The notes under the pieces: generated by a model
Told to the model about the DNA's origin: nothing
The model's input: only the letters and a program-made list of their open reading frames with translations
The model's database searches: none
Position numbers and translations under genes: made by a program
Source: Gordonibacter sp. An230
GTDB taxonomy: Bacteria > Actinomycetota > Coriobacteriia > Coriobacteriales > Eggerthellaceae
NCBI RefSeq assembly: GCF_002159915.1
Contig: NZ_NFJP01000006.1
Location: forward strand, 1 to 64,000
DNA length: 64,000 nucleotides
Reading direction: 5' to 3'
Shown: piece after piece, positions 9,137 to 57,970 of the stretch
How the letters are laid out: every line of letters starts with the position of its first letter
Numbering within the stretch: the stretch's first letter is position 1

Positions 9137-9223
9137 GCGGGCGTGGCGGAATTGGCAGACGCGTACGGTTCAGGTCCGTATGAGAGCAATCTCATGGAGG
9201 TTCAAGTCCTCTCGCCCGCACCA
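9137..9223 (+). tRNA. tRNA-Leu(CAG)
   Basis: An 87-nt class II tRNA with encoded CCA. Acceptor stem GCGGGCG/CGCCCGC, D arm GGCGGAATTGGCAGAC, anticodon stem TACGG/CCGTA with loop TTCAGGT (anticodon CAG, reading CUG), long variable arm TGAGAGCAATCTCA, and T arm GGAGG-TTCAAGT-CCTCT. The gene is complete, and DNA downstream is typical element DNA, so its 3' end is the probable attachment site of the mobile element (inference). Confidence 0.95.
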
Positions 9224-21746: not shown

Positions 21747-21900
21747 TCATTCCCTCCTGCCATGTACGATTTACATCCGAAAACCTAAAAGCGAGTTAAC
21801 TTAATCTAATATTATATACACCAAGCAATGACAGTGATATGCTACATCTCTCTTTACAAAGCATATGCAATTCGCTCAGGCGCTATCGACGGGAGAGAGT
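21747..21900. promoter_or_regulatory. divergent promoter region reductase / aryl-AMP ligase
   Basis: 154 bp between divergent starts with an AT-rich core (21797-21822: TTAACTTAATCTAATATTAT). It must hold both promoters. No perfect palindrome is seen; GTTAACTTAATCTAAT resembles half-sites of the TTAG/CTAA type found at other island promoters. Confidence 0.4.
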
Positions 21901-23496: not shown

Positions 23497-23574
23497 GCGC
23501 TTTCGACTTGAGGTTTTGCGGGAATGTGGCGAGGGCCGATGGCGATCGCTTGCCGGTTCCTGGTTTGATGGCTG

Positions 23575-24579: not shown

Positions 24580-24700
24580 TCGCTTCTCCGGACTCATTTG
24601 CTCTCTCGTATTGAGCTCAATTATAAAAATCGGCCTGTATTTTTTCAATTTGAGACAATTTGTCATGAAACCGGAATTTGCGCGCTGTTGTCATACTAGG

Positions 24701-24718
24701 CTAACTTTGAGCAGTTAG
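24701..24718. promoter_or_regulatory. inverted repeat upstream of ECF operon A
   Basis: CTAACT-TTGAGC-AGTTAG, a 6-bp perfect inverted repeat 21 bp before the ecfT start, preceded by ACTAGG. TTAG/CTAA half-sites are typical of DtxR-family boxes, and a DtxR-like gene lies at the island's right end. Candidate iron-dependent operator. Confidence 0.4.
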
Positions 24719-24739
24719 TTTGGTGAAACATGCGGAAGG

Positions 24740-25480
24740 GTGAACGTGTCGGATAAGGCTGATTCTCGGTTGGCGCTACGGCTCGATCCAAGGACGAAGA
24801 TTATCCTGTTGGTCGTTTTCGGCATCTGCGCCTGCTTTTGCCGCGATGCGGCGTGGGGTTCCGTTTTGTTTGCTCTCGCGCTGCTGTTCTCCTGCATAAC
24901 GGGAGAGGCCCGTTTGGCGGTGAAGTTTCTCGTCGGCTATGTTGCCGTGCTCGTCTTCGTTACTTTGGCCGTGACGGTTAATCCGGAGATTGGCACGCGC
25001 ATCGCTCTGATCTTCCAGTCGTTTCGAGCGGCCTTCCCTCCTTTTTTGATGGCCGCCATCCTTATCATGACGACCAAGACGGGCGATCTCGTGGCCGCGC
25101 TTTACGCCTTTCGTGTTCCGCGCCTCCTCGTCATACCCTTGGCAGTTGGCATCAGATTCTTTCCGACGCTTGTCGAGGAGTTTCGTTGCGTCGTCGATGC
25201 GGCAAGGCTGCAAGGCGTGAGTTTTTCTCCCGCCGGGGTGGTCCGCCATCCTTCGACGATCTGCGAATCTTTGATAGTTCCCACTGTCTTGAGGTCGGCC
25301 AAAATCGCCGAAGAGCTTGCGGCGGCTGCGGTCACGCGCGGCATCGAGAAGCCAGGCGAGCGCACGTCGTTCAACGAGCTCGCGCTCTCAAGGGCCGATA
25401 TAGCCCTGCTCCTTTGCTTTTCCGCCGCCTGCGTAGCTGTTTCCGTTGCTTGCTCCATTGCGAAAGGGGGCTGGGCGTGA
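24740..25480 (+). CDS. ECF transporter transmembrane component (EcfT), set A
   Basis: 246 residues, about five to six membrane helices. It opens with the family phrase LRLDPRTKIILLVVF and carries the two coupling-helix motifs that contact the ATPases (AARLQGVSF and AVTRGIEKPG, the Ala-Arg-Gly type signature). EcfT links the ATPases to the substrate-binding S component. The GTG start 24740 (or GTG 24746) follows GGAAGGG. Its stop overlaps the ATPase start (TGATG), and the S component follows, giving a complete T-A-S operon before the two ABC exporter-fold genes. Confidence 0.88.
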   Translation: MNVSDKADSRLALRLDPRTKIILLVVFGICACFCRDAAWGSVLFALALLFSCITGEARLAVKFLVGYVAVLVFVTLAVTVNPEIGTRIALIFQSFRAAFPPFLMAAILIMTTKTGDLVAALYAFRVPRLLVIPLAVGIRFFPTLVEEFRCVVDAARLQGVSFSPAGVVRHPSTICESLIVPTVLRSAKIAEELAAAAVTRGIEKPGERTSFNELALSRADIALLLCFSAACVAVSVACSIAKGGWA

Positions 25481-26883
25481 TGGAACGTCTGGCGATAGAC
25501 CTGAAGGGCGTTACGTTCAAGTACAAAAACGCTGACGAGCCGAGCGTTTGCGACGTCTCCTTGGAGGTTTCGGCTGGCGAATGCGTTGTCCTCACGGGTG
25601 CTTCGGGATGCGGAAAGACGACCCTCACGCGCATTGTAAACGGACTCGCCTATGACTTCTACGAAGGCGATCTGTCGGGATCGGCACGTGTGTGCGGGCG
25701 CGATGTGACAGAGATGCCTTCGTGGGAGCGCGCCCGTGTCGTCGGGTCTGTGTTTCAGAATCCGCGTACGCAGTTCTTCAATCTCGACACTACCGGCGAG
25801 GTGGTGTTCGGGATGGAAAACTTAGGCGTGAGCCACGACGACATGCATAGCCGCTATGACCGCGTGGTGGAAGAGCTGGGAATACGGGGCCTTATGGATC
25901 GTGGCATTTTCCAGCTTTCGGGCGGGCAAAAGCAAGCTGTGGCCTTTGCGAGCGCATGGGCGAACACCCCCGCTGCGTATGTCTTAGACGAGCCGTCCTC
26001 CAACCTCGACATCCCCTCGATGAGGCGTTTGGCGAGTTTCGTCGCCAAGGCGAAGAAGGAGGGCGCTGCGGTTCTGGTTGCCGAGCATCGACTGTTCTGG
26101 CTGGCCGATGTGGCCGACCGCTTCGTATGCATACGCGATGGCCGCGTTGCGGGCTCTTGGTCGGCCGACGAGTTCGCTCGGCTCGGGGCAGATTTCAGGG
26201 AGAGGTTGGGGATGCGCTCTCTCGAGCAACCGAGCTGCGCCCACCTCGATAAGGCTTCGACCGCTTCGGCTTCTTGCGCGTGCGAGGTGAGAGGATTGAG
26301 CGCAGGATACGGAGGCGGCTTGGCGCTCGATCAGGTTAACTTTTCCTTCGACAAAGGCGAGGTCGTCGGCATCGTCGGCGAGAACGGGCGCGGAAAGTCC
26401 ACGCTCCTGCGCTGCATATGCGGGCTCCATAGGGAGGTTTCGGGGCAGGTGCTGTTCGAGAACTCTCCCGTCGATGCGAAGAGGCGGCCGGAGAAGGCTT
26501 TTCTTGTCATGCAGGACGTCGACTACCAGCTGTTCCGCACGAGCGTTATGGCGGAGCTGGCGGCGGCCGCGCGCCGCGGGAATCGCGAGCTGGAGGAGGC
26601 TCGGGCACTGCTCGAAGAGCTTGGTTTGGAGCGCTTTTCCGACAGGCACCCCGCATCTTTGTCGGGGGGCCAGAAGCAGAGGGTCGTCTGCGCCATGGCG
26701 GCTCTCAGCCCTTGCGACGTGGTGCTGCTGGACGAGCCTACGAGTGGGCTCGACTTCGTCAACATGGTTCGCCTCGCCTCATTGGTCAGGAGATTCGCTT
26801 CGGAGGGGAGGGCTGTCGTCGTGGTTTCGCACGATGCCGAGTTCCTTTCGAGGGCTTGCGACCGAGTGGTGCGATTCGAATAG
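25480..26883 (+). CDS. fused ECF energy-coupling ATPase (EcfA-EcfA'), set A
   Basis: 467 residues containing two complete ABC ATPase domains. Domain 1 (about 1-225): GASGCGKTT, LSGGQKQAV, VLDEPSSNLD. Domain 2 (about 260-467): GENGRGKST, LSGGQKQRV, LLDEPTSGLD. In most ECF systems these are separate proteins; fused forms are known for dedicated (group I-like) transporters. It powers the EcfT-S complex. ATG 25480 overlaps the ecfT stop. Domain 1 has Ala after GGQKQ, slightly atypical but compatible with activity. Confidence 0.92.
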   Translation: MERLAIDLKGVTFKYKNADEPSVCDVSLEVSAGECVVLTGASGCGKTTLTRIVNGLAYDFYEGDLSGSARVCGRDVTEMPSWERARVVGSVFQNPRTQFFNLDTTGEVVFGMENLGVSHDDMHSRYDRVVEELGIRGLMDRGIFQLSGGQKQAVAFASAWANTPAAYVLDEPSSNLDIPSMRRLASFVAKAKKEGAAVLVAEHRLFWLADVADRFVCIRDGRVAGSWSADEFARLGADFRERLGMRSLEQPSCAHLDKASTASASCACEVRGLSAGYGGGLALDQVNFSFDKGEVVGIVGENGRGKSTLLRCICGLHREVSGQVLFENSPVDAKRRPEKAFLVMQDVDYQLFRTSVMAELAAAARRGNRELEEARALLEELGLERFSDRHPASLSGGQKQRVVCAMAALSPCDVVLLDEPTSGLDFVNMVRLASLVRRFASEGRAVVVVSHDAEFLSRACDRVVRFE

Positions 26884-26944
26884 AGGCATTGTGGAAAGGG
26901 GTCGGCATCGGGCCGATCCTATCCGGAATCGAGAAAGGACTTCC

Positions 26945-27577
26945 ATGGAAAACAGCGTAAAAAATGTCGCGGCAGGAGCCTCTTCCCCGTCGAAGCAGGG
27001 GCTGCGAGCCAAGGATCTTATTGCCCTCGGCGTGTTCGGACTGATCTACTTTGTTGCAACCATGCTGGTTATGGGAGTGCTCTCAATGTCGGTGGCCGGA
27101 TTCCTTGTCGCTCCTGCCGTGTCGAGCATTTTGGCCGGCATAGTTTGGACCTACCTTCGCGTTCGCGTCCCCAAACCGTGGGCTATGCTTATCCCCGGGT
27201 TCCTGTGCGGCATCGTCATGTTCCTCATCGGAACCGGCTGGCCTGTCGCAGTTTCCTACTTTGTCGGGGCTTTGCTCGCCGAGGGGTGCAGCGCTATCGG
27301 CAAGTATAAGAGCTTTCTTTGGAACTCCATCGGATACGCCTTTGTGAGCGCGTGCTTCATGGTCGGCTCGCACCTTCCCCTGATCGCCATGCCCCAATAT
27401 TACCTCGACATGCTCAGCGCGAGCGGCGGCGTGGAGTACGGCCAGCAGATCATGAACACCATCACGCCGGCTATGCTGTGCGGTCTTGTCGTGCTGGCCT
27501 TCGTGACGGGCATCGTGGGCTCTCTGCTCGGTCGTTTGCTCCTCAAGCGCCACTTCGAGCGCGCTGGCATCGCCTAG
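26945..27577 (+). CDS. ECF substrate-specificity component (Trep_Strep/MptD-like), set A
   Basis: 210 residues, about six hydrophobic helices, short polar N-terminus ending in LRAKDLIALGVFGLIYFVAT. This is the style of the Trep_Strep/MptD family of putative S components, which occur beside YbtPQ-type transporters in siderophore loci of Firmicutes. ATG 26945 follows GAAAGGAC. It lies between the fused ATPase and the ABC pair. The ligand is probably the siderophore or a degradation product (inference); no family ligand is established that I can cite. Confidence 0.82.
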   Translation: MENSVKNVAAGASSPSKQGLRAKDLIALGVFGLIYFVATMLVMGVLSMSVAGFLVAPAVSSILAGIVWTYLRVRVPKPWAMLIPGFLCGIVMFLIGTGWPVAVSYFVGALLAEGCSAIGKYKSFLWNSIGYAFVSACFMVGSHLPLIAMPQYYLDMLSASGGVEYGQQIMNTITPAMLCGLVVLAFVTGIVGSLLGRLLLKRHFERAGIA

Positions 27578-27586
27578 GCGGTTGTC

Positions 27587-29407
27587 ATGAAGGAAGCAGG
27601 CAAGCAGCCCGGATGGCTTTCACGTGCGTTCGCGGCGGCGGGATCGGAGAGATTCCTTCTTGTTGCGGCCATAGTGTTGGCGGCTTTGTCGCAAATCGCC
27701 TTGTTTCTGCCTTATGTGGCGATTTACTTTGTCGTCTCTGACGCCATCCACGTTTACCCGAACTTCGCCGATCTCGATTCCGCTCGCGTAATGACGTATG
27801 GCTTTATCGCTGTTGGAGGCGCAGTGGGAAACATCGTGCTCTACATGGCCGCTTTGCTGTGCTCGCACGCCGCTGCGTTTGATACCGAGTACAGGTTGCG
27901 CCTCTCTGTGGTGAGCCATATTGCACGCATCCCGCTCGGACGCTTTCTGTCTATTGGCAGCGGGCGCGTCGGGAAGATCATGGACGCAAACGTGAACAAG
28001 GTAAGTGAGTTCATCGCTCATTCTCTGCCTGATTTAGCGGCATCGACCATGGCGCCAGTCTGCTTGCTTGCAGTCCTCATTATCTTTGATTGGAGGCTCG
28101 GCTTGGCGGCGCTGGCATGCGTCGTTGCGGGCTATGCGGTGCAGATGTCGTCTGCGTTCAACAATAGGATGCGCGACGTCATGCCCCGTTATCAGCAAGC
28201 GACTGAAAAGATGGCGAATGCCACCGTTGAGTATGTGCGAGGTATGCCCGTCGTCAAAACCTTCGGGCAGACGGCCTCGTCTTTCACCCGTCTTTCCGAT
28301 TCCGTCAAAGAGTATACGGGAGTGGCGATAGACGTGGCCTTGTTCTGGCAGAACCTCATGCCGGCTTTCACCGCAATCGTGAACAACGCCTGGCTGTTCG
28401 TCCTTCCTGTCGGCATTGTTATCGCCACGGGCGTGGACGATTGGCTGACGTTTGCGCTCAACCTCATTTTCTACCTCCTCTTTGTGCCGTCTATCGCGGC
28501 GGTGCTCAACAAGCTCATGTACATCTCCCAGGATAGCGCCAACCTCGTGTCGAACCTTGATGCGGTGGAGGCGGTCACGGGCATCTCCTCTCTGCCAGAG
28601 CCGGCCGAAGGATGCTCCAAGATTCCCGCCGACGCCTCCATCGAGTTCGACAAGGTGTCGTTTCGCTATGAAGAGGACGGGCATCTCGCTCTCGACGAGG
28701 TGAGCTTCTCGGTGCCGTCAGGGAGCACCTGCGCCATAGTGGGGCCATCGGGGTCTGGCAAATCGACCGTAGCGAGCCTGATGGCGCGATTTTGGGACGT
28801 CTCGTCGGGCAGCGTGCGCGTTGGCGGGGTCGATGTGCGGGAGATAGCCTCCGATACCCTCATGTCGCAGATGAGCCTCGTGTTCCAAGACGTCAGTTTG
28901 TTCAAGGCGTCCCTGCTCGACAATATTCGCATGGCTCGTCCCGATGCGACAAGCGAAGAGGTGATGGCTGCGGCGAAGGCCGCCCAGGCAGATGAGTTTA
29001 TCAGGGCGCTTCCGCAGGGTTACGAGACGGTGTACGGGAGCGATGGGGTGCACCTCTCGGGTGGAGAGAAGCAGAGGGTGTCGATCGCCCGTGCGATTTT
29101 AGCCGATCGCCCTATCGTCGTGCTCGACGAGGCAACCGCCTTCGCCGATCCCGAAAACGAGCATCTCATACAAAAGGCATTCGCAGAGCTTATGGCCGGG
29201 AAAACCGTCGTTATGATCGCGCATCGGCTGTCTACCGTGGTGGGCGCCGATCAAATTCTCGTGATTGATGACGGCCGCATAATGGAGCGAGGCCGCCACG
29301 AGGATCTCCTTGCCGCCAAGGGCGCGTACGCACGCTTGTGGGACCTGTACACCCGTGCGGTGACGTGGAAGGTGTCTTCGGCGAGGAAGGAGGTCCTCGA
29401 TGCCTAG
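27587..29407 (+). CDS. ABC transporter, permease-ATPase fusion (YbtP/IrtA-like), set A subunit 1
   Basis: 606 residues: a six-helix exporter-fold membrane domain (about 1-330) followed by an ATPase with GPSGSGKST, LSGGEKQRVS and VVLDEATAFADPENE. The ATAFADPENE phrase is characteristic of the YbtPQ/IrtAB subfamily, exporter-fold proteins that work as importers of ferric siderophores. ATG 27587 is 9 bp after the ecfS stop, and the stop overlaps the next gene by 8 bp; the two should form a heterodimer in the membrane. GC is about 58%, higher than the matching genes of set B. Confidence 0.9.
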   Translation: MKEAGKQPGWLSRAFAAAGSERFLLVAAIVLAALSQIALFLPYVAIYFVVSDAIHVYPNFADLDSARVMTYGFIAVGGAVGNIVLYMAALLCSHAAAFDTEYRLRLSVVSHIARIPLGRFLSIGSGRVGKIMDANVNKVSEFIAHSLPDLAASTMAPVCLLAVLIIFDWRLGLAALACVVAGYAVQMSSAFNNRMRDVMPRYQQATEKMANATVEYVRGMPVVKTFGQTASSFTRLSDSVKEYTGVAIDVALFWQNLMPAFTAIVNNAWLFVLPVGIVIATGVDDWLTFALNLIFYLLFVPSIAAVLNKLMYISQDSANLVSNLDAVEAVTGISSLPEPAEGCSKIPADASIEFDKVSFRYEEDGHLALDEVSFSVPSGSTCAIVGPSGSGKSTVASLMARFWDVSSGSVRVGGVDVREIASDTLMSQMSLVFQDVSLFKASLLDNIRMARPDATSEEVMAAAKAAQADEFIRALPQGYETVYGSDGVHLSGGEKQRVSIARAILADRPIVVLDEATAFADPENEHLIQKAFAELMAGKTVVMIAHRLSTVVGADQILVIDDGRIMERGRHEDLLAAKGAYARLWDLYTRAVTWKVSSARKEVLDA

Positions 29408-31181
29408 CGAGAAGTCCGTTGCGCGGCAGCCGCGTTTGCAGCGCGCGCTCGCCCTCACGGATGGGGGCTACCGGAATTTTAAGAGGGCCGTTGCTGCTTG
29501 CACGGTCACAAATCTCACGCTCATGATCCCGTTCTCCCTAACGATTGGGGCTTTTTGGACGACGCTTCGAGTGTTAACGGGGGATGTCTCCGCGTGGGAT
29601 TCCATTTGGATGCTCGTCCCCTTGGGCATTGTCGGCGCGATCATCGTGTTCGCCTCTGCTCGCAACGATTACCGGAAAACCTACATAGCAGCCTATAGGG
29701 AATCCGAGGCCACTCGGTTAAACCTCGCCGAGCATCTACGCAAGCTCCCCATGAGCTTTTTCAACAGACGCGATCTGAGCGAGCTGTCTGAAAACCTCAT
29801 GGGTGATGTAACGAGTCAGGAAGCCATGCTCACGGGCGTGCTCCCGCAGCTTTTGTCGAATTGCTTCTCGGTGACCATCACCTGCGCTGCCTTGGCGATC
29901 TTCGATTGGCGGCTGGCCCTGTGCATCTTCTGCACGCTCCCCGTCGCTCTCGTTGTGGTTCTCGTGTGTCGCAGACATGAGCACAAGCTGTTTGTCCGTC
30001 AAAACGAGGTTCGTTTTGCCGCTTCTGCGTATGTCCAAGAGTACGTTGAGGGGATCAAGGATATTCGCGCATGCCGCCAAGTTGGCGCGCGGTCGAAACC
30101 TCTCGAGCAAGCGTTGAGGGAGATGCGCGACATTGCATTCAAGGCAGAGGTATTCGGGGATGTGAGTACCGGAATAGCGCAGTCCATCTTGCAGTTTGGC
30201 GTTGGGCTTGTGGTGTTTGTGGGGACATGGCTACTCGTCGGCGGCCAGGTGGACTTCCTCGTGCTGCTCGCCTTCCTCCTGATCGCATCGCGTATTTATG
30301 GGCCGATGGTGTCCGTCATGTCTTATCTTGTGAGCGTTCTGTACATGCACACCAGAACTTCCAGGATGCGCGCCTTGCGCGACGAGCCGATCGCCTCGGG
30401 CTCGCGCCAGATCGAAGTGGGGCCTCATCGCGTCGAATTCCGTGATGTGCGTTTCTCCTATGGCGACGAGGAGGTTCTCAAGGGAGTGTCGTTTTCGATG
30501 GAGCCCGGAACGGTTACGGCGCTCGTGGGGCCCTCCGGATCGGGCAAGTCGACGTGCGCTCAGCTTGTCGCTCGATTTTGGATTCCTCAAAGCGGCGTTG
30601 TGGCGGTGGACGGGACCGGAACTGCGGATCTCGACGAGGAATCGTGGCTTAAGAGTGTCTCCGTCGTTTTTCAAGATGTGGTTTTGTTCGACGATACGGT
30701 TGCCAACAATATACGTATGGGGCGGGCTAATGCTACCGACGAAGAAGTGCGAGCGGCTGCTCAAGCAGCCCATTGCGAGGAGTTTATTGATCGGTTGCCA
30801 AATGGCTGGGACACCATGCTTGGCGAGAACGGGGCAAAGCTTTCCGGTGGAGAACGGCAGCGCATATCCATTGCCCGTGCGCTGTTGAAGGACGCTCCCA
30901 TCATATTGCTCGACGAGGCCACAAGTTCTTTGGATCCCGAAAATGAGACGCTTGTGCAAGAGGCGATAAGCCATCTGGTAGAGAGCAAAACCGTGCTCAT
31001 CATTGCTCATCGTCTGCGAACGGTTGCCGACGCCGACAACATCGTCGTGTTGGATGAGGGGCGAGTTGTCGAACAAGGAACCCACGAGGAGCTTATGAGC
31101 AGAAACGGAGTGTATGCCAATCTTTTCGATCTTCAACGGGGCAGTGCCGACTGGCACATAGGGGCGGTGCGAACCTCCTGA
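29400..31181 (+). CDS. ABC transporter, permease-ATPase fusion (YbtQ/IrtB-like), set A subunit 2
   Basis: 593 residues, same architecture as its partner: six-helix membrane domain, then ATPase with GPSGSGKST, LSGGERQRIS and ILLDEATSSLDPENE. ATG 29400 overlaps the upstream stop. Heterodimer partner of the preceding protein in ferric-siderophore uptake, with iron release by reduction inside the cell as for IrtAB (family knowledge). This is the last gene of the set A operon; 185 bp separate it from the NRPS fragment on the same strand. Confidence 0.9.
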   Translation: MPSEKSVARQPRLQRALALTDGGYRNFKRAVAACTVTNLTLMIPFSLTIGAFWTTLRVLTGDVSAWDSIWMLVPLGIVGAIIVFASARNDYRKTYIAAYRESEATRLNLAEHLRKLPMSFFNRRDLSELSENLMGDVTSQEAMLTGVLPQLLSNCFSVTITCAALAIFDWRLALCIFCTLPVALVVVLVCRRHEHKLFVRQNEVRFAASAYVQEYVEGIKDIRACRQVGARSKPLEQALREMRDIAFKAEVFGDVSTGIAQSILQFGVGLVVFVGTWLLVGGQVDFLVLLAFLLIASRIYGPMVSVMSYLVSVLYMHTRTSRMRALRDEPIASGSRQIEVGPHRVEFRDVRFSYGDEEVLKGVSFSMEPGTVTALVGPSGSGKSTCAQLVARFWIPQSGVVAVDGTGTADLDEESWLKSVSVVFQDVVLFDDTVANNIRMGRANATDEEVRAAAQAAHCEEFIDRLPNGWDTMLGENGAKLSGGERQRISIARALLKDAPIILLDEATSSLDPENETLVQEAISHLVESKTVLIIAHRLRTVADADNIVVLDEGRVVEQGTHEELMSRNGVYANLFDLQRGSADWHIGAVRTS

Positions 31182-31366
31182 TGGGTCATCGACTTCATTT
31201 GGAGCGTCGCCTCCCCGGTCAAGGAACAGGCTTCGCCAATAGCGAAATACCAAGGGTTCCCATATCGAAGGGAGAGGATTTCGGTTTTTCGATGCCTGAT
31301 CAAGTCTTTCGATTCTAGTTTGTTTGCGTGTCGCTAATCCTACTGACAGGTGTTTTTGGAGGGCGT

Positions 31367-32620
31367 ATGGACAACCAGGGAAGTTCCTCATGTTTGACCT
31401 TTGAGAATTTTCGTCGAGCTGTGAGCGAGATTTCAGGCGTTTCTTCGAATCGGATCGAGCGAAATTCCGATCTGATTGGTCTTGGTATTGATTCCATTCG
31501 TCTTATGAGGCTTGCCGGTTGGCTGCGCAAGCAGGGGTTGCCGATTCGATTCTCGGAACTTTCCAGCAAACAAACCGTTGGCGAATGGTGGAGCCTTGTG
31601 CAAAGTGCGCAGCGAGAACTTGCTTCTTCGAAAAGAGAATGCCCTCTCGAATCCATTCAAATGGACGAAGGCCAACCATTTGACCTTGCCGTAATGCAGC
31701 ATGCCTTTTGGGTTGGTCGGGTTAAAGGTCAGGAACTTAGTGGCGTCTCCGCTCATTTTTATAACGAATTTGATGCCGACAACAAAGACGTGCCGGGCGT
31801 TGATCCTCAGCGTTTGGAGAACGCTATTCGAGAACTCTTCGAACGGCATGGAATGCTGCGAATGAGGGTAACCGAAGATGGACGGCAATACATAGATCGC
31901 AAACCTGCTTGGAACGGCCTTTGCATTCACGATCTAAGAGGCTTTTCTGCCGAGGAAAGGGTCGAGCGCTTGCAAAGCATCCGAGATGAGCTGTCGCATC
32001 GAATCATGGATGTTTCTGCGGGAGAAGTGTTTGATATCCAGTTGAGCTTGCTCGACGAAGGTGCCACGAGAATGCATGTCAGCCTTGACATGATGGCTGC
32101 CGACGCAATGAGTTTGCGGAGACTGCTAAATGACTTGTCAATTCTGTACCTTTGGGAGCACCTTGAACTTCCAAGTTTGACGTATTCGTATCCAATGTAT
32201 CTTGCAGAGCGGGCGAAGAGTCGTCAAATTGCTCGGGAGCAAGCAGCTGGATGGTGGAGGGGAAAGTTATCCTCTCTTTCAGGGCCGCCTAGCCTGCCTC
32301 TTCTTCGCGAAGAAGAGGCAGGGGGTCGTCCGACTGTCACACGAAGGCATTTTTGGTTGTCTCCCGAACAGAAAGAGACTGCATTCGCTTTGTCTCATCG
32401 GCATGGCGTCACTCCGGCTGTAATGTTTGCTACCGCATTTGCGGAAGTGGTAGATCGTTGGAGCGAAACCGATCGCTTTTTCTTGAATTTACCCGTGTTC
32501 GATAGGGAACCGCTTCACGATGACGTTGAGTATCTTGTAGGAGATTTTTCCAGTTCCGTTTTAGTAGATATCGATATGTCTGGTAGCCCTGCGTTTTCTT
32601 TCCCCGCTTGTAGCGTCTAG
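31367..32620 (+). CDS. NRPS fragment: aryl carrier protein + truncated heterocyclisation domain
   Basis: 417 residues, 3'-truncated. Residues 10-80 are an aryl carrier protein with LIGLGIDSIRLMRL (Ser43 is the phosphopantetheine site). From about residue 105 (FDLAVMQHAFWVGRVKG) a heterocyclisation (Cy) domain begins, with the diagnostic DxxxxDxxS as DMMAADAMS. It stops inside Cy: after GDFSSSVLVDIDMSGSPAF the frame runs into unrelated DNA and ends. The intact parent would be an Irp2/HMWP2-like ArCP-Cy-A-PCP protein. ATG 31367 follows GGAGG. The missing adenylation domain and downstream modules mean this protein alone cannot make a siderophore, although it could still be loaded with aryl acid. 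Confidence 0.88.
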   Translation: MDNQGSSSCLTFENFRRAVSEISGVSSNRIERNSDLIGLGIDSIRLMRLAGWLRKQGLPIRFSELSSKQTVGEWWSLVQSAQRELASSKRECPLESIQMDEGQPFDLAVMQHAFWVGRVKGQELSGVSAHFYNEFDADNKDVPGVDPQRLENAIRELFERHGMLRMRVTEDGRQYIDRKPAWNGLCIHDLRGFSAEERVERLQSIRDELSHRIMDVSAGEVFDIQLSLLDEGATRMHVSLDMMAADAMSLRRLLNDLSILYLWEHLELPSLTYSYPMYLAERAKSRQIAREQAAGWWRGKLSSLSGPPSLPLLREEEAGGRPTVTRRHFWLSPEQKETAFALSHRHGVTPAVMFATAFAEVVDRWSETDRFFLNLPVFDREPLHDDVEYLVGDFSSSVLVDIDMSGSPAFSFPACSV

Positions 32621-34906
32621 CATCATTGACATTTGGGCCGGTGCCGAATTCCAGAAGGTAATTTTGTTCGAACATGCCGCTTGCGCCCACAGGGTGGGAT
32701 TAGCAAAGGCTCCCTGCTCTACGAGCACCAATGTGCCTCCCGAACCAATAACACCAAAGATATCGAATACGGAGAGGTCGAAATCGAGGTTCGACACCCC
32801 CAATGCCACCGTGTCGCTTCCTACATCAAATCGCGCACAGATATCCTGGATGGTGTTCAAGGCTGCTTTGTGGCTTACTAACACGCCCTTAGGCTCTCCA
32901 GTGGATCCGGAAGTGAAGATGGCGTACGCATTGTTGCTAGGGTTGTTTGGCGGGCTCGGGAGATCAAATCTTGAAGTTTGACAAAGTGAAGTCTCCGGGG
33001 ACAATACTGCTCCTCGGAACCATCGGGCGTCCGAATTCGACAGCAAAGCCTTTAATCCCGCGCGTGCAGCGACGGCTTCCTTTCGGGCATCTGGATGTGA
33101 AGGGTTTATTGGGACGTACGTGCATCCGGCCAAGAGGGTTCCATAGACGCATGCAATTTGCTCCGCTCCCTTTGTCATGCAGATGCCCACGTGGTCTTTG
33201 GGGCCGATGCCAGCTTCTGATAGCTGAAAGGCTATCGCGTCAGCTCTCTTTCGAAGCTGCAGAAAAGTAAGACAGTTGTGCGAATCGACGACTGCAATCC
33301 GGTCGGGATGTTCTTTTGCCTGACGAAGAAGTCCGTCGAATAGCATCTCTTCCGCATAGCTACGACCGGCCGCTTGTTGGTCTAAATCTTGCTGCACGTG
33401 CGATCTGGTTAACGCTTGGTCTTTCGGAACTTCGAAGATTATCGGATCTTCCGGGCGAATTTTTCCGAGAGATACGCGAGTTAGGGTCGAGCAGAACGAT
33501 TCAAACATCGTCTCGATCATTCCGTCGGGGAATACCCCTTGCCGAACATCCCAGTTTATGCAGAGATCGGTGCCTATGATTGCCGCTTGAAAATCTACCC
33601 CAACTTGAGGAGTTTGCGTTATGGCATATGAGATACTCCAATTGTGGCTAAACTCCTCTTTCCGGTCGGAAGAGAGGGCAGATGTGAAAACGAAAGGATA
33701 GGAAGCGCCTTTGTTGCCTCCATTTTTGCGGGTTATGTCTCGCATGATCGCAACGCCCGAATACGAATTGTGCTCGACTATTCCCATTAATTCCATGAAG
33801 GATTCTTTGGCAAGATCGCCCAGCGATTGTCCTCGTTGCTCCAAGACGGCATAACCAGTGGAGGTGAAATCACCGGTAAGTTTTTTGACATCGGGATGTA
33901 AAGGCTTTCGATCGAATAACGTTACAACAATGGCATTGCGTTTCTGGGCAGACCAATTTGCGATAGATGCACCGTACAGCGCAAGCAACAAAGCGCTGAG
34001 GCTTACGCCAACTCGTTTCGCAAAGTTGAGAAACCCATCTTTCAATTCCTTCGATAGCTTCACGTCAAGTCGCTTGAATTGATTCTTCCATGCGCTGCCT
34101 AGCATGGGGACATCGACCCCTATCGCAATGTCTTGGTATCGATCCTCCCAGTATTTTCTGTCTTTATCGGAGTTGATCTTCTGAGCCGCTATTACGTAGT
34201 CGCGAAAAGTGATCCTCGCATCGTTTTCGGGAAGTGCCTTTCCCTTGGCTGCTTCGAAAAATGTGTCAAGAATGACCATCATGCTTGTCCAGTCTGCGAC
34301 AAGGAAATCGATGGAGACGTGTACGGTGTCAACGCCTTTAGCGTGGCTCAATCCAACGCCCATGAGAGGAGGCTTGTGAATCTCGTGGATGGCATGCGAC
34401 ATCGTGCCTCTTAGCTCGACGCAAGACGATTCGTCGTCGCTCGATAGGTTGGCGATTTTCGGAACATCGATTTCATCGAAAGGAAGTACTTGCTGAAAAC
34501 CCGATTCGTCGTACATCGTCCGCAGGGAATCGTAGCGACGGATGATCGCTTCGAAGGCTCGTTGTAGGCTCTCGAGGGTTATTCCCGGCATTTCCACCTC
34601 AAAGTATGCATGGCAGGATACCCCTCCTCCTTGGACGGATTCTCGCCTTCCCAGCAGGTAAGCCGACTGTACGTCGGTTAGGGGAAATGGCATGTGGGCT
34701 TCTTCGGGGCTTGGCTCAATGAGAGAGTCCCCTTCCTTGCTTTTCAACGTGTCGATAATTTGCTGCCGATGGGCCTTGAGACTCGATCTTAAGGAGTCGG
34801 AAAGTGGGCCTTGGGTAGTGCGAAAATGCAGGGCTCCTTCTTCTACCCACAAGTCTACGCCTTCATTGCTCGCTTGCTTCATTATCTCAGACAGCAGGCT
34901 TTCCAT
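32561..34906 (-). CDS. NRPS fragment: docking + heterocyclisation + truncated cysteine-like adenylation domain
   Basis: 781 residues, 3'-truncated. Residues 1-60 are a TubC_N-type docking domain (VDLWVEEGALHFR). Residues about 70-490 form a heterocyclisation domain (FPLTDVQSAYLLGR; DFLVADWTS is the DxxxxDxxS motif). From about 540 an adenylation domain begins (YAIFTSGSTGEPKG, FDLSVFDIFG, FWNSAPAQM). My reading of the first specificity positions is Asp, Leu, Phe, Asn, close to the DLYN of cysteine-activating domains. It breaks off after MLDATSGERKR, before the later A motifs, thiolation and release domains. It begins 7 bp after the ecfA stop, so it is the last gene of operon B. Confidence 0.88.
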   Translation of the reverse strand: MESLLSEIMKQASNEGVDLWVEEGALHFRTTQGPLSDSLRSSLKAHRQQIIDTLKSKEGDSLIEPSPEEAHMPFPLTDVQSAYLLGRRESVQGGGVSCHAYFEVEMPGITLESLQRAFEAIIRRYDSLRTMYDESGFQQVLPFDEIDVPKIANLSSDDESSCVELRGTMSHAIHEIHKPPLMGVGLSHAKGVDTVHVSIDFLVADWTSMMVILDTFFEAAKGKALPENDARITFRDYVIAAQKINSDKDRKYWEDRYQDIAIGVDVPMLGSAWKNQFKRLDVKLSKELKDGFLNFAKRVGVSLSALLLALYGASIANWSAQKRNAIVVTLFDRKPLHPDVKKLTGDFTSTGYAVLEQRGQSLGDLAKESFMELMGIVEHNSYSGVAIMRDITRKNGGNKGASYPFVFTSALSSDRKEEFSHNWSISYAITQTPQVGVDFQAAIIGTDLCINWDVRQGVFPDGMIETMFESFCSTLTRVSLGKIRPEDPIIFEVPKDQALTRSHVQQDLDQQAAGRSYAEEMLFDGLLRQAKEHPDRIAVVDSHNCLTFLQLRKRADAIAFQLSEAGIGPKDHVGICMTKGAEQIACVYGTLLAGCTYVPINPSHPDARKEAVAARAGLKALLSNSDARWFRGAVLSPETSLCQTSRFDLPSPPNNPSNNAYAIFTSGSTGEPKGVLVSHKAALNTIQDICARFDVGSDTVALGVSNLDFDLSVFDIFGVIGSGGTLVLVEQGAFANPTLWAQAACSNKITFWNSAPAQMSMMLDATSGERKRRATRHIDIY

Positions 34907-34913
34907 AAGGTGC

Positions 34914-36431
34914 TCACTTTCTCTGTTCTTGCGCAATGGCGTTCTGGCTGTTGAAAAAATCAAAGACCCTTTTTATTCCTTTATCGTCGAGGGGATATGG
35001 CGCACCCAAGCGCCCTTTGTCCATTTCGACGACGTGAGTGCAGCATGACTCTATTAGTTCGAGATCGTGCGTTACGATGATTTGCGCTAGTCCTTCTCGC
35101 TGCATACGCTTCATGACGCTGGCGACTTCCTCCATATGACGCAAGTCCAAGCCGCTTGTGGGCTCATCGTATATGAGAACCCTTCTTTTGGCGGCAAGAG
35201 CTGCCGCGATGGCGATGCGTTGCTTTTGGCCGCCGGAAAGAGACATGGGATGCCTATCTTCAAACCCCTTCAAACCGAGCCCTCCCAGCAGATTGTATGC
35301 GTATTCTTTTTCGGGGTTTTTCATTCCTAGAAGGACTTCTTCGAGCGCATCCTCGGCGAAAAGCTGATGGTTAACATCCTGCATCACTAAATACGAGAGA
35401 GAAGAGAGGCCTTTCCCCGTTATGATTTCACCATCAATGGCGACTCGTGCCCTATTGTGGCGCGATAGGCCAGAGAGGCTAAGGGAGAACGTCGACTTTC
35501 CCGCCCCGTTACGCCCTACGAGTGCGGTAATTCCATGCCGGGGGAGTTTTACATTCTCAATGGTTAGCGCGCGAGGGTCGGTGTCGTTTTTGGAGCGTCG
35601 GGCAATTTCGACCGTGAAAGTTTCATCGGAGTGAAGTGCTTTCGGCTGAAACCGCGAATGCCTTGCCTTTGCCTTGAGCGTTCCGCATCGTAGGCCCATG
35701 CTACGCAAATCTTCGTTGCTCATCTCCCGCAGATGATCTCCGCTGATTTCTTGAACGATGCGACCTTCGCGCATCAAAACCGCATGATCGACCAGATCCC
35801 GTATGTAGAAGATTCGGTGTTCGGCCACTACTACCGTTTTGCCTTCGGCTTTCCAGAGGGAAATTGCATTTTTCAGGTGGCAGATTCCCTCCATATCAAG
35901 GTTCGAAGAAGGTTCGTCCAATACGTAAAGTTGCGGATTGATGGTGGAGGCGGATGCGCAGGCGATGCGCTGTTTTTCTCCTCCAGATAGGCTGAAGATG
36001 TTTCTGCCCAGAAGGGAGTTGATGCCGAGCTGGTCGGCGACATGGCTAATTCTCCGGCGAATCTCGTCGGGTTCTATTCCTTGATTTTCGCAAGAGAACG
36101 CTAGTTCGCTTGTCGTGTCGGTGGTAAAAAACTGGCTTCGCGGATTTTGGAACACCGATCCGACTTTTTGAGATATTTCATAAAGTGGGGTAGTGGAGAC
36201 ATCAAGTCCGCAGACGATTGCTCTGCCCGATAATTCGCCTTCGTCGTAATGGGGGATAAGGCCATTGAGCATTTTCGTAATCGTGGTTTTACCGCTGCCC
36301 GACTCTCCCATAAGGAGAATTACTTTTCCTGCGGCTCCGGCAATGGATATTCCGCGAACCCCTTCTCGGGCATCGGTGGAGTCGTATGAAAAAGATACGT
36401 CTTCCAGCTGAAACGTCGGGGTTTTCGTCAT
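34914..36431 (-). CDS. fused ECF energy-coupling ATPase (EcfA-EcfA'), set B
   Basis: 505 residues with two ABC ATPase domains: domain 1 GESGSGKTT, LSGGEKQRI, VLDEPSSNLD; domain 2 GRNGAGKST, LSGGQKQRI, IYDEPTSGLD. It has the same architecture as the set A protein but is clearly divergent (lower GC, longer linker), so the two sets are not a recent duplication. The ATG at 36431 overlaps the ecfT stop (ATGA). It powers the second ECF importer. Confidence 0.92.
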   Translation of the reverse strand: MTKTPTFQLEDVSFSYDSTDAREGVRGISIAGAAGKVILLMGESGSGKTTITKMLNGLIPHYDEGELSGRAIVCGLDVSTTPLYEISQKVGSVFQNPRSQFFTTDTTSELAFSCENQGIEPDEIRRRISHVADQLGINSLLGRNIFSLSGGEKQRIACASASTINPQLYVLDEPSSNLDMEGICHLKNAISLWKAEGKTVVVAEHRIFYIRDLVDHAVLMREGRIVQEISGDHLREMSNEDLRSMGLRCGTLKAKARHSRFQPKALHSDETFTVEIARRSKNDTDPRALTIENVKLPRHGITALVGRNGAGKSTFSLSLSGLSRHNRARVAIDGEIITGKGLSSLSYLVMQDVNHQLFAEDALEEVLLGMKNPEKEYAYNLLGGLGLKGFEDRHPMSLSGGQKQRIAIAAALAAKRRVLIYDEPTSGLDLRHMEEVASVMKRMQREGLAQIIVTHDLELIESCCTHVVEMDKGRLGAPYPLDDKGIKRVFDFFNSQNAIAQEQRK

Positions 36432-37162
36432 AGGGCGCCTCCGAATCCCTGCAAAGCGAAGATCGCTAAGCATCCGATGCAGATGGCGCCTACGACGCCA
36501 TCTGCCAAGTGAAACCCTATTGTGCTAATAGAGGTGCGTTTGCAGGGCGCGCCCAATCCCCGCGTAAGTGCGGATGCCGATAGCTCTTCCCCGATGCGTA
36601 TCGAGCACATCATAAGGGGAACGAGGCGATACTCTAAAAACGACAGGCCCCTATTATTGCCGGTGCCGCGCATTCTCACTGCGCGACCAATAGCGGAGGC
36701 CTCTTCTAAAAGTGTGGGGACAAATCGAAACATGACGGCAAGGGGTATAACGATAGTCTGCGGGATATGCATCCGTTCGAGGCCGGCGACGAGTTCATTG
36801 ACCGTCGTAGTCGTGACCATGTAGTACCCCGTGGCAATTCCCGGAGCCAATCGAAGGGCAAACCCGCACATCAAAAGCAACAATATTGTCACCAGTCCAA
36901 ACGAAGGCATGTATGCTGTAATGACATATTGGAGAGCTGTGGCAAAAGCAACGAGGCTTGCGTATCCGATTGCTAAAACAAATTTGCGTTCCATTAGCAA
37001 CAAGACGAATGGAAGCAGTGAGAGGATAGGGCGAACAACGAGCAGCGCCCCGTCGTACCCTCCAGTGAGAAGCACGGTCGAAATACTCGCAAGAACCAAC
37101 AGTTTTGTTCGTGGATCGAGGATGGTGCTCCTCTGGGCGGTGGGAGTGCCTTGCGCTGACAT
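36428..37162 (-). CDS. ECF transporter transmembrane component (EcfT), set B
   Basis: 244 residues, about six membrane helices. Family phrase STILDPRTKLLVL near the N-terminus; coupling motifs AVRMRGTGN and ALTRGLGAP. It begins 3 bp after the S-component stop and overlaps the ATPase start, so S-T-A are translated as a unit. The gene order (S-T-A) differs from set A (T-A-S). Confidence 0.88.
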   Translation of the reverse strand: MSAQGTPTAQRSTILDPRTKLLVLASISTVLLTGGYDGALLVVRPILSLLPFVLLLMERKFVLAIGYASLVAFATALQYVITAYMPSFGLVTILLLLMCGFALRLAPGIATGYYMVTTTTVNELVAGLERMHIPQTIVIPLAVMFRFVPTLLEEASAIGRAVRMRGTGNNRGLSFLEYRLVPLMMCSIRIGEELSASALTRGLGAPCKRTSISTIGFHLADGVVGAICIGCLAIFALQGFGGAL

Positions 37163-37165
37163 GGC

Positions 37166-37807
37166 CTAACGAATTCCTGACCTCTCAAAATGCTTGCGGT
37201 ACAAACGCTTTCCGATGAACGCTCCTACAAGGCCGGAGAGAAATGCCACTACGAGGAGTATGGGAACGATCCATTCGGGCATCAAGGTTGATAGCTGGGA
37301 GGCATATTCGGCTCCAAGATTCTGTTCTTGCTGAGCCAAGAAGGCGTCTCTCGTGAACACAAACGGAAGGAAGTTGCCTACAATCCACATGCTTTGCACG
37401 GCGTATGCCAGAACGACGTTGCGTGCGTTCTGATAGTTTCCCGCTTTGAGAATGCATTCAGCGGCTAAGCCGAATACAAGCGTTGTAAAGATCGAGAAAT
37501 ATCCCATTCCACCCATGAACATAATCAAGCCAACCAGTAGGCTGAGAACGACGACCATCCCGAACTTCTTCACTTTGGTGAGGAAATACATCATGGGGAT
37601 TCCGCCCAAGATCGGCACAAGCACGGCCGCCAAGGGCACAAACACGGGGATCGCGGCGAGGGAGCCGGCGATGCCTATGACGACAATGTATATTGCGGCG
37701 AAAACGCCGATCTTGATCAACTCTTTTGCCTGCAGCCGTTTCCCGTCGGGTTTACTTGCTCCCACTTCTTTCTCCTTCGAATCGGTTCTCGATGATGTTA
37801 GAATCAT
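37166..37807 (-). CDS. ECF substrate-specificity component (Trep_Strep/MptD-like), set B
   Basis: 213 residues, about six helices, with RLQAKELIKIGVFAAIYIVV near the start and a C-terminal KRLYRKHFERSGIR that matches the set A protein's LLLKRHFERAGIA. The shared C-terminal phrase supports one family for both S components. The ATG lies inside an 18-bp palindrome, so repressor binding there would block this operon. Divergent from the AraC copy B gene. Confidence 0.82.
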   Translation of the reverse strand: MILTSSRTDSKEKEVGASKPDGKRLQAKELIKIGVFAAIYIVVIGIAGSLAAIPVFVPLAAVLVPILGGIPMMYFLTKVKKFGMVVVLSLLVGLIMFMGGMGYFSIFTTLVFGLAAECILKAGNYQNARNVVLAYAVQSMWIVGNFLPFVFTRDAFLAQQEQNLGAEYASQLSTLMPEWIVPILLVVAFLSGLVGAFIGKRLYRKHFERSGIR

Positions 37808-37813
37808 CTAACA
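37796..37813. promoter_or_regulatory. palindrome overlapping the start of operon B
   Basis: TGTTAGA-ATCA-TCTAACA, a perfect 7-bp inverted repeat spanning the ecfS-B ATG. The TTAG/CTAA halves resemble DtxR-family boxes and the repeat at 24701-24718. Candidate iron-dependent operator; it might alternatively be an AraC site. Confidence 0.45.
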
Positions 37814-37893
37814 CTAATTGATCATCGGATTGCTCCGCAACTCCAAACGGACGGCAATCCCCCAATTGGCTAAAACAGGAGGTTCTTTCTTTG

Positions 37894-38901
37894 ATGGGAG
37901 GGAGAATGGAAACCTGCGGAATATCGCCCTATGCGGCCATTGAGGGTGTAGAAAAATTTGGTATCAGTTTTGACAGAAAAGAAGGTAATGACTATTACTA
38001 TACGTTCTACGGAGAAAGCGGCCGTGGCTTCCTGCGGGTAAGAGAGGCATCTCCTGGTGTTACGATCATGTACAACGAATACTGCCTCTCGTGGTGCAAG
38101 AGTGGGTTCGACGCTCAAGACGATCTGCTCGTTTTGGATTTCTGCCGAAAAGGGCGTATGAACTATGTGAGCAAACTGGGCACTGGTCGCTACGACGCGG
38201 GGGATATGTGTATCAACAGCAGGAGCGATCATTCCGGGACGTACTATTTTCCTTTCGGGCACTATGTCGGAGTGACTGTAAGTTTTGACCTCTGTTTCTT
38301 AAGAAACAATCGCGAAGCTCTGAGCGCATACCCCGTTGATATCCAGGAGCTTCACCAAAAACTCTTGAGCCATAATGAGCGCTCTATCGTGCGTGGAGAT
38401 AAATTCGCGGAGCATCTGTTCTCGGGATTCTATGATGTTCCCGCCGGTATAAGAGATGACTATTACTATCATTTGGTGTGCGAGCTCTTGCTGTATCTTG
38501 AATCGCTTGAGCCTCTTAAACACGCTTACCTCAAGCCTTTTATTGATCGAGATAACATCAATAAGATAGTTGCAATCAGGGACTATCTTGTCAAAGATGT
38601 GGAAAGGCACCACACGATCAACGATTTGGCGAAGCGCTTCGATATTCCGTCTACCACTTTAAAAACTTGCTTTCGTGCCGTTTACGGCGATCCTGTATTT
38701 TCATACATGCGCACGTATCGAGCAAACAAAGCTGCGGCATTGCTCATAAGATGCCCTTCTTTAAGCATAGCTGATATTGCCGTCCGAGTGGGATACGCTA
38801 ATCCGAGCAAGTTTTCTGAAGCGTTCAAGAGCATCATGGGCTGCCTTCCGAGCGCTTACCGAAAAAAGCATCATGTCGAAACAGGCAGTCTTCCTGATTG
38901 A
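37894..38901 (+). CDS. AraC-family regulator of the siderophore island (copy B)
   Basis: 335 residues. A sensory N-terminal domain is followed by the two-helix-turn-helix AraC domain (INDLAKRFDIPSTTLKTCFRAVYG; IADIAVRVGYANPSKFSEAFKSIMG), very like YbtA/PchR-type siderophore regulators. ATG 37894 has AGGAGG upstream; a TTG three bases earlier is an alternative. It is divergent from the ecfS-T-A-NRPS operon and upstream of the second ABC pair, both of which it probably controls (inference). Confidence 0.87.
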   Translation: MGGRMETCGISPYAAIEGVEKFGISFDRKEGNDYYYTFYGESGRGFLRVREASPGVTIMYNEYCLSWCKSGFDAQDDLLVLDFCRKGRMNYVSKLGTGRYDAGDMCINSRSDHSGTYYFPFGHYVGVTVSFDLCFLRNNREALSAYPVDIQELHQKLLSHNERSIVRGDKFAEHLFSGFYDVPAGIRDDYYYHLVCELLLYLESLEPLKHAYLKPFIDRDNINKIVAIRDYLVKDVERHHTINDLAKRFDIPSTTLKTCFRAVYGDPVFSYMRTYRANKAAALLIRCPSLSIADIAVRVGYANPSKFSEAFKSIMGCLPSAYRKKHHVETGSLPD

Positions 38902-39079
38902 CGTCATCCCGCCGAAGCAGAAGCATTCATTCCAAATATTTTCGTCCAAATGGATTGATTGCGTCCATATGGGTTTGGACAACTCGCCCCTTCGCTTCAT
39001 ACTCTCAAATATTAGATAAGAGTAACTTTCTCCAGGGTGGGACTTGGGAAGTCGTTGCATTTTAGTTGGGAGAGCAAAG

Positions 39080-40966
39080 ATGAAGAGAGAATCTGCGAAG
39101 GGGCCAGCCAAGGACGAAGCTCATAGGGATACACGCGGATGGCTCGGGATTCTTTTAGGATATGCGAGCAAATGCCGAGGTCGTATGATCCTGGCCGAAG
39201 TTCTGTCTGTTGCCAGCGTGTTCTTGGGACTGGTTCCATTTTATGCAGTGTATCGCATCATCGAAGTCGTTGCCGCGACCACGGACGATATCTATGCAAG
39301 CTGGGATGCGATACTGTTTTGGAGCGTTGTTTCCATCGCTTCCTATGTGCTGCAACGCGTATTCTTCGGACTCTCCACCATCAATGCGCACATCAGTGCA
39401 TACACAATTCTGGGCACCTTGCGAGAGGGGGTGGCCACAAAACTCATGAATGCCTCATTGGGCACTGCCCAAGATAAAACAATTGGGAATCTTAAAAATC
39501 TCGTAGTAGACAAGATAGAAAAGATCGAGATCCCCCTCGCTCACATGATTCCAGAACTTTCGGCCAATCTTCTTCTGGCTCTAGCCATTGCAATATGGCT
39601 TGCAATTATAGATTGGAGAATTGCTCTCTCCTGCCTTCTTACCGTCCCCATCGGCCTTCTTGTCATGGGGCTGGGAATGCAGAATTATTACAAGATGTAT
39701 GACGGTTACCTAAAAGAACAGGATCGCGTTAACTCTGTCGTCGTCGAATACATAGAGGGAATCCGTGTAGTAAAAGCATTTAACCAGGCAACTAACTCAT
39801 ACAAGAAATTTTCCGATGCCGTGTCCAGTTTTTTGAAGTTTACCCTCAGCTGGATGAAGTCATCCTGGATTCCGCAGCATCTCGCCATGTCGATAATCCC
39901 CACCACATTACTGGGGGTCGCTCCCGTGGGGATATTGCTGTTCGAAATGGGAGATATAACTGCTCCCGAGTTCGGTCTTTCTTGCGTGCTTGCACTTGCT
40001 GTAGTTACACCGGTAACTTATCTAGGGGCAAGCTTCAATGAGATCAACCTTATATCTTATGCAATTGCGGATGCGAGGGAGTTCCTTGATTTGCCCGAAT
40101 TGCCTCAGCCTGCGGAGCGAGCTGTGCCGAGTGGGGCAGAAGTAAAGTTTGATGACGTGCATTTTTCTTATCGGGAGGGCAAGGAGGCCCTTAGCGGCGT
40201 GTCTATTGAGGCATCCTCTGGCAGCTTCGTCGCATTGGTGGGTCCTTCGGGTTCAGGAAAATCTACGATCGCCCGTTTGATTGCGAGGCATTGGGACGTT
40301 GATTCTGGCTCCATAACTATTGGCGGAGTTGACGTGAGGAGCATGCCTCTTAGCCAGTTATCCGATCTTGTGAGCTACGTCTCGCAAGATGATTATTTGT
40401 TAGACGGAACTCTCTTGGACAACATCCGCATGGGTCGACCCGACGCAACCGAAGAGGAGGCCATGGCCGCCGCGCAAGCAGCAAGTTGCGAAGAATTCAT
40501 AAAAAGATTGCCGCAAGGTTGGGATACCCCTTCAGGCGAGGCGGGGAGGATGCTTTCGGGTGGTGAACGCCAAAGGGTGTGCATCGCGCGCGCCATTTTG
40601 AAAGACGCCCCCATAGTAGTATTCGACGAGGCCACCGCATTCGCAGATCCCGAAAACGAAGCTCGCATCCAACGCTCGGTAGCTCAGCTGTCGAAGGGAA
40701 AAACACTGATAGTAATTGCTCATAGGCTGTCCACAATCGTCGCGGCGAATACGATCTACGTTATCGAAGATGGTTCTGTTGTGGCGCAAGGAGGGCATGA
40801 CGATCTTCTCAGAGAGTGCAAATTGTACTCTTCAATGTGGGAAGCTCATACCGGAGCTTCCACATGGGCGGTTGGAGACGGGGGCGCTTCCAAGGCATTC
40901 GCCTCGAAGGCACAGGAGGTCGATGCCCGATGGTGCGCGCATACAATAAGATTGTCACTTGGATAG
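39080..40966 (+). CDS. ABC transporter, permease-ATPase fusion (YbtP/IrtA-like), set B subunit 1
   Basis: 628 residues: six-helix exporter-fold membrane domain and ATPase with GPSGSGKST, LSGGERQRVC and VFDEATAFADPENE, again the siderophore-importer subfamily phrase. ATG 39080 follows GGGAGAG. The last 12 codons overlap the start of the partner gene by 37 bp. The C-terminal tail (STWAVGDGG and beyond) has a higher GC content than the body. Partner of the next protein in a heterodimeric ferric-siderophore importer. Confidence 0.9.
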   Translation: MKRESAKGPAKDEAHRDTRGWLGILLGYASKCRGRMILAEVLSVASVFLGLVPFYAVYRIIEVVAATTDDIYASWDAILFWSVVSIASYVLQRVFFGLSTINAHISAYTILGTLREGVATKLMNASLGTAQDKTIGNLKNLVVDKIEKIEIPLAHMIPELSANLLLALAIAIWLAIIDWRIALSCLLTVPIGLLVMGLGMQNYYKMYDGYLKEQDRVNSVVVEYIEGIRVVKAFNQATNSYKKFSDAVSSFLKFTLSWMKSSWIPQHLAMSIIPTTLLGVAPVGILLFEMGDITAPEFGLSCVLALAVVTPVTYLGASFNEINLISYAIADAREFLDLPELPQPAERAVPSGAEVKFDDVHFSYREGKEALSGVSIEASSGSFVALVGPSGSGKSTIARLIARHWDVDSGSITIGGVDVRSMPLSQLSDLVSYVSQDDYLLDGTLLDNIRMGRPDATEEEAMAAAQAASCEEFIKRLPQGWDTPSGEAGRMLSGGERQRVCIARAILKDAPIVVFDEATAFADPENEARIQRSVAQLSKGKTLIVIAHRLSTIVAANTIYVIEDGSVVAQGGHDDLLRECKLYSSMWEAHTGASTWAVGDGGASKAFASKAQEVDARWCAHTIRLSLG

Positions 40967-44438: not shown

Positions 44439-44630
44439 CTACGCCGCCGACGCCTCCATCCGCTTCCCGATCCACCTGATCACGGGGACGGCCATGGAGT
44501 TGCCCAGCGCCTTGTAGCGCGGGGTGTCGCAAGCGGGCTTGCCGCGGTATTCCACATCGGTCCAGCCGTCCGGGAACCCCTGCAGGCGCTCGCATTCGAG
44601 CGGCGTCAGGCGGCGCACGAAATGTGGAAC
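44439..44630 (-). pseudogene. 3' fragment of a DNA cytosine methyltransferase gene
   Basis: Reads FVRRLTPLECERLQGFPDGW and continues to GNSMAVPVIRWIGKRME, the last 56 residues of a 5-cytosine methyltransferase. 44452-44619 is the same as 58446-58613 (the 3' end of the full gene) except for three mismatches over 168 bp. Upstream of 44619 the similarity stops abruptly. It has no start signal of its own. Confidence 0.85.
44452..44619. repeat. 168-bp direct repeat, left copy
   Basis: Matches 58446-58613 without gaps, three mismatches by eye (near 44512, 44531 and 44546). Same orientation. The two copies bracket 13.8 kb of regulators, lysis genes and tet(W), so recombination between them would delete that block. 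Confidence 0.88.
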
Positions 44631-57965: not shown

Positions 57966-57970
57966 TTAGC

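Follow-up and report, generated by a model that had tools for sequence, protein, structure and literature searches.

Two truncated nonribosomal peptide synthetase (NRPS) genes meet tail to tail in the first 64,000 nucleotides of contig NZ_NFJP01000006.1 from Gordonibacter sp. An230 (this whole stretch is hereafter designated the window). We found that the + strand gene (X) ends within a Cy domain and the − strand gene (Y') within an A domain, and that they join exactly at 32598/32599, the final base of one gene cluster (cluster A, containing X) and the opening base of another (cluster B, containing Y'). The joint is likely to be a deletion scar, at which two neighbouring convergent NRPS clusters would have lost their middle. 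The two truncated genes are:

31367 to 32598, + strand: 5' stub of NRPS gene X, coding for a carrier domain (in the ArCP position) and roughly the initial two thirds of a Cy domain; the counterpart in the related genome G066 has 2,856 amino acids
34906 to 32599, − strand: 5' part of NRPS gene Y', with a TubC_N docking domain, a Cy domain and about 70% of an A domain

The ends of the Pfam domain matches confirmed the first-pass annotation of this DNA, which had the + strand gene breaking in Cy and the − strand gene in A, tail to tail. The + strand open reading frame (ORF; 31328–32620, probable start ATG at 31367) codes for a carrier domain followed by a Condensation/Cy domain, the match to which breaks off at profile position 310 of 456; after the carrier domain the stub carries DMMAADAMS, which fits the Cy motif DxxxxDxxS. 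The − strand ORF (34963–32561, probable start ATG at 34906) codes for TubC_N, Cy (30–433 of 456) and an AMP-binding match ending at 276 of 384. Both stubs are open as far as the joint; the ORFs have 60 nt (32561–32620) in common, and past the joint each carries junk codons that are the antisense of the opposite gene. The patterns YxTGD, QVKxRG and NGKxD are missing from both truncated products; all three are found in the X gene of G066, and a Y' relative in another genome, G030, has YxTGD and QVKxRG, with NGKxD unmatched. Neither gene has complete modules through PCP and thioesterase (TE) in the window, X and Y' both being cut, and the remaining halves are absent from it, as had been claimed.

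The breakpoint was located by comparison with other genomes. A search with window positions 32000–33200 (1,201 bases) covered 149 genomes including the window's own, with two candidate places scored per genome, so that weaker or further matches may be missed. Six of the 149 genomes matched, and the sole strong foreign match was to G066, a single-contig chromosome from the same family as the window's genome and a different genus, with 92% identity ending exactly at 32598. The joint, previously placed near 32590–32610, was thus fixed at 32598/32599, where identity with G066 stops; indeed, in a base-by-base alignment the left identity continues to ...GCGTTTTC and ends there. With the whole window as the query, positions 19906–32598 corresponded to G066 28620–41308 (91.3% identity over 12.7 kb), and identity resumed at 42670–43774, corresponding to G066 57335–58439 (87.8%). 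Between these two matched blocks G066 has 16,026 bases, as against 10,071 bases in the window (32599–42669). The G066 interval holds the remainder of the 2,856-residue X (A, Cy and PCP domains), a 437-residue ORF coding for the greater part of a Cy domain as well as a PCP, a 1,823-residue gene with the order TubC-Cy-A-MT-PCP-TE, an Irp3-like reductase and a thioesterase. In the window the corresponding place is taken by the Y' stub, the genes of an ECF-type module and of an AraC regulator, and a pair of ABC transporter genes.

For a deletion scar, both genes are expected to continue past the cut in relatives, the missing parts to be absent from the window's own genome, and both flanks to derive from one ancestral locus. 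The comparison with related loci that the first-pass annotation had proposed showed that X of G066 continues past the breakpoint at 32598, and the Y' relative in G030 is a gene of 1,658 amino acids, to the N-terminal part of which Y' is 52% identical. The other proposed check, a genome search for the missing Cy and A-PCP-TE parts, supported loss, as they did not turn up elsewhere in the assembly (a draft of 73 contigs, listed as 96.66% complete). The 16,026-base interval of G066, used as a DNA query against this assembly, gave three weak matches only (66–89% identity, at most 194 bases), and the C-terminal continuation of Y', represented by that part of the G030 protein, met in the window's own genome only remoter proteins of at most 49% identity, the best two (44% and 49%) being on contig C73. 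As for the flanks, G066 matches both sides of the joint, and an apparent remnant of an ABC transporter gene, described next, points the same way.

In G066, GCCGAAGGCTGGAAAATATGA ends with a TGA that overlaps the start of the MFS gene, and 20 of its 21 letters match the window at the 3' end of cluster B's second ABC gene. The closest three relatives of the second ABC protein (53–65%, among the stretches compared) have the C-termini EAEGWRLG, AAEGWRIAG and EAEGWSFRQ, which share a similar EGW motif. Judged from these letters, G066 seems to retain the final codons of the cluster B ABC gene before its MFS gene; because of this agreement and of the EGW-type C-termini, it probably once had an ABC gene at this place and then lost it, and the ancestor therefore probably had both clusters.

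We infer an ancestor in which cluster A was followed by cluster B, both of metallophore type, with their synthetase genes converging. One illegitimate deletion, without long homology, would then have taken out everything from the first Cy of X through the A domain of Y', that is, at least 16 kb still kept in G066 together with the remainder of Y'. Both assembly lines would thereby have lost their catalytic cores, and with them presumably their products, while the accessory, transport and regulatory genes of A and B stayed, and the remaining transport genes could still serve metallophore uptake. On this history the G066 lineage would have lost cluster B, and the window's lineage the synthetase core of A and the tail of Y'. 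The first-pass annotation had offered an inversion plus deletion that destroyed biosynthesis; the destruction is supported, the cores being missing, and an inversion is not required, because convergent genes with a deleted middle yield the joint directly. Measured against the divergence of the window from G066, the break appears recent, since neither stub is interrupted before the joint and the ratio of nonsynonymous to synonymous substitution rates (dN/dS) of the X stub, 0.18, lies within the range of its 10 neighbours (0.06–0.26; 11 genes compared with G066), although this leaves the break undated and most changes may predate it. Among these neighbours, the ABC pair stands at 0.06, the Trep_Strep, double ATPase and CbiQ genes at 0.075–0.11, and the MFS gene at 0.26.

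Several points weigh against this history. No relative was found in which A and B lie complete side by side, so that the ancestor is a reconstruction, and the original layout of cluster B is uncertain, because G030 is only 52% identical and its Y'-type gene has the opposite orientation relative to the adjoining ECF module. The X gene of G066 is unbroken across the window's breakpoint, yet this comparison does not prove it functional, and it is interrupted in the fourth Cy domain by a frameshift (48605–48647) that may be a sequencing error. The letters of GCCGAAGGCTGGAAAATATGA also cover the start codon of the MFS gene, with probably its ribosome-binding site, and may be conserved for that reason. 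Finally, the argument that the joint is real is an indirect one, drawn from the assembly and the comparison.

A different origin of the right-hand side, which we consider unlikely, is that cluster B recombined in and overwrote the middle of A, with a clean crossover near the ABC/MFS border and an illegitimate joint at 32598. In its favour, the MFS match (87.8%) is lower than that of cluster A (91.3%), and a search of 138 genomes of the family, again with two candidate places scored per genome, gave no close DNA relative of the left end of cluster B among the matches listed. Replacement alone, however, does not account for the apparent ABC remnant at the MFS start of G066, which implies an earlier ABC gene.

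Among the matches listed in the same family search, two genomes besides the window's own, G066 and G073, reach at least 90% identity with the left cluster, and X is disrupted in all three carriers: it is cut in the first Cy in the window and frameshifted in the fourth Cy in G066, and in G073 a contig (C63) that starts within the cluster leaves it 10 nt into X. For G066 and G073, errors of sequencing or assembly may account for the disruption. The two further genomes of the window's genus gave no match above 70% to the cluster stretch in the same family search, and the three longest matches of the window's first 20 kb to G066 are 68–74% identical. Because identity within the cluster is 91%, as against these 68–74%, the cluster has probably moved horizontally, as far as such identities tell. 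Relatives of Y' with E of at most 1e-60 numbered seven, including its own, among 396 genomes sampled from the class, and none other is nearer than G030.

Closely similar A-domain copies occur in two of the related genomes. In G030, copies of 1,452 bp (contig C1, 931237–932688 and 935633–937083) are 98.4% identical, inverted and about 2.9 kb apart in two divergent NRPS genes, the − strand one of which appears divided between two frames; by its arrangement, the segment between them could invert and exchange the N-terminal halves. In G151 (contig C1, 261495–270214), tandem A-PCP copies lie inside one NRPS open frame of 3,550 amino acids, the pairs being 100% identical over 1,664 bp and over 1,333 bp, and 99.95% identical over 2,161 bp. 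On account of these 98–100% identical copies and of the disruption of X in all three carriers, the joint might be seen as one outcome of exceptionally active recombination within a family of metallophore NRPS clusters that moves horizontally, in which synthetase genes repeatedly break and re-pair, transport is kept and producers turn into uptake-only users; we regard this as doubtful. A perfect palindrome of 30 nt without a spacer (32293–32322) lies in the coding sequence of the X stub at a distance of 276 nt from the joint; it is the sole one in the window with arms of at least 11, and its G066 version is imperfect, three letters differing in one arm. It is possibly the trace of a template switch, and the comparison with G066 is compatible with either polarity of change; if recombination were so active, the palindrome could mark the switch site. 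The locus probably reflects decay of an ordinary kind in a horizontally acquired cluster of metallophore type, with its transport genes kept.

A chimera of the assembly or library, in which the contig unites places that are not adjacent in the chromosome, seems improbable. NRPS genes are hard to assemble, the assembly is a draft, and another of its contig breaks falls within an NRPS gene. For a chimera, however, the true continuations should exist elsewhere, and neither was found in the assembly. Moreover, cluster B borders at its far side on the MFS gene found after cluster A in G066, which argues that left and right are one locus. No exact word of 11 or more, on either strand, is common to the X stub and the 2.4 kb that follow the joint (three words of 10 are), and the window contains no N; an overlap of 77 nt between two other contig ends suggests k = 77, in which case the joint would be carried by real k-mers.

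An invertible switch with its other half elsewhere, as the first-pass annotation had also proposed, is highly improbable in spite of the inverted A-domain repeats of the related G030 locus, for we found no inverted repeat pair across the joint (none in 31800–33400), no separated inverted pair in a self-comparison of the whole window at E 0.01, no other halves in the window's own genome beyond the weak matches given above, and no recombinase among the 39 distinct ORFs, a subset of those in the window, that were scanned with Pfam.

No insertion sequence was recognised at the joint either. A plasmid search gave only one Streptomyces record covering 2% of the query, a scan of viral contigs gave nothing useful, and in the literature searched no paper could be tied to this locus.

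The genes that accompany the two stubs, and the gene at which G066 identity resumes, are as follows:

19945 to 20637, − strand: cluster A, phosphopantetheinyl transferase, 92% to G066
20634 to 21746, − strand: cluster A, NAD(P)-binding reductase-like protein, with weak Sacchrp_dh_NADP and NAD_binding_10 matches, both under the curated cut-off; 94% to G066
21865 to 23496, + strand: cluster A, aryl acid-AMP ligase, top model 2,3-dihydroxybenzoyl-adenylate synthase at 542 bits (cut-off of 723.55 not reached); 91% to G066
23575 to 24666, − strand: cluster A, putative AraC-type regulator, read from the sequence alone without a family search; 85% to G066
24740 to 27577, + strand: cluster A, ECF-type module (CbiQ-like protein, double ABC ATPase, Trep_Strep-like membrane protein), the names resting on the similarity of the G066 orthologues to cluster B proteins
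27587 to 31181, + strand: cluster A, ABC transporter pair of exporter fold (27587–29407 and 29400–31181), 96% to G066
34914 to 37807, − strand: cluster B, second ECF-type module (double ABC ATPase 34914–36473, CbiQ 36428–37162, Trep_Strep S component 37166–37807)
37891 to 38901, + strand: cluster B, AraC-type regulator, from the domain/profile search
39044 to 42690, + strand: cluster B, ABC transporter pair of exporter fold (39044–40966 and 40816–42690), from the domain/profile search
42670 to 43774, + strand: stretch at the MFS gene (42687–43940) that again matches the G066 cluster locus, at 87.8% identity

The G+C content is 48–62% from 20 to 43 kb and mostly 59–73% to the left of this region.

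Like yersiniabactin/pyochelin-type thiazoline metallophore synthetases, for which we take HMWP2/PchE and PchF as the types of comparison, the G066 locus has an ArCP first, Cy domains, an embedded methyltransferase (MT), an Irp3-like reductase and a thioesterase. Unlike them, the synthetases of the window are both truncated and form a remnant, which is accompanied by a TubC-type docking domain and ECF-type transport modules. The event is ordinary in kind, that is, gene-cluster decay. What had appeared as an ambiguous tail-to-tail oddity becomes a located and probably polarised loss, in which two related genomes seem to hold opposite parts of one ancestral metallophore-type locus, and the case cautions against predicting two products from the region. 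It also offers a simple way of telling decay from assembly error, namely to see where the identity of an unbroken relative stops and resumes.

A report on Planktothrix describes NRPS clusters lost through gene loss and rearrangement (PMC9366434). The likeness is that peptide synthetase clusters of an ancestor were partly lost afterwards; the difference is that no insertion sequence was recognised at the present joint and that two clusters were struck at once. According to a report on Pseudomonas (PMC11734721), a siderophore helps or harms according to the presence of the matching uptake receptor, and transport genes kept after the loss of synthesis would fit the kind of sharing described there; transport in the present case is, unlike in that pairing, deduced from ABC and ECF genes adjoining the cluster. 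The strain may import cluster A- or B-type metallophores that it no longer makes, which is a testable idea.

The window's own genome has four places with Condensation domains, namely the X stub, the Y' stub and the ends of contigs C1 and C73. The latter two were considered as the missing halves and rejected, as these contig ends overlap by exactly 77 nt and form a separate cluster, which reads, when joined, ArCP-Cy-A-PCP followed by TubC-Cy-A-MT-PCP-TE and is, by its domain order, apparently a third, pyochelin-like cluster that is whole. The joined region is continuous in G066, with 99.99% identity over the 20 kb compared. Because this cluster (C73 1–11641 and C1 1–8436) is 99.99% identical between two genera, as against 68–74% for the longest matches in the window's first 20 kb, it was, judged by identity, transferred horizontally very recently. 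G151 likewise has most of the cluster, at 99.8–99.9%, and the 77-nt overlap falls at the beginning of the segment that the three A-PCP copies of that genome share.

Further to the right in the window, a gene for a ribosomal protection protein of the Tet(M)/Tet(W) family (51567–53486; 1,284 bits, cut-off 1,100) lies near C-5 cytosine methylase and topoisomerase genes, and the genes around it look like parts of a mobile element. A direct repeat of 168 bp (44452–44619 and 58446–58613, 98.2% identical and 14 kb apart), the sole repeat in the window of at least 60 bases with at least 90% identity, is kin to one G066 sequence near 72 kb and is possibly the trace of an element duplication or insertion. 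On the left, the stretches 8515–8665 and 9051–9204 are 85% similar, and the second includes most of a tRNA-Leu gene; the pair is maybe a degenerate tRNA copy or an attachment site.

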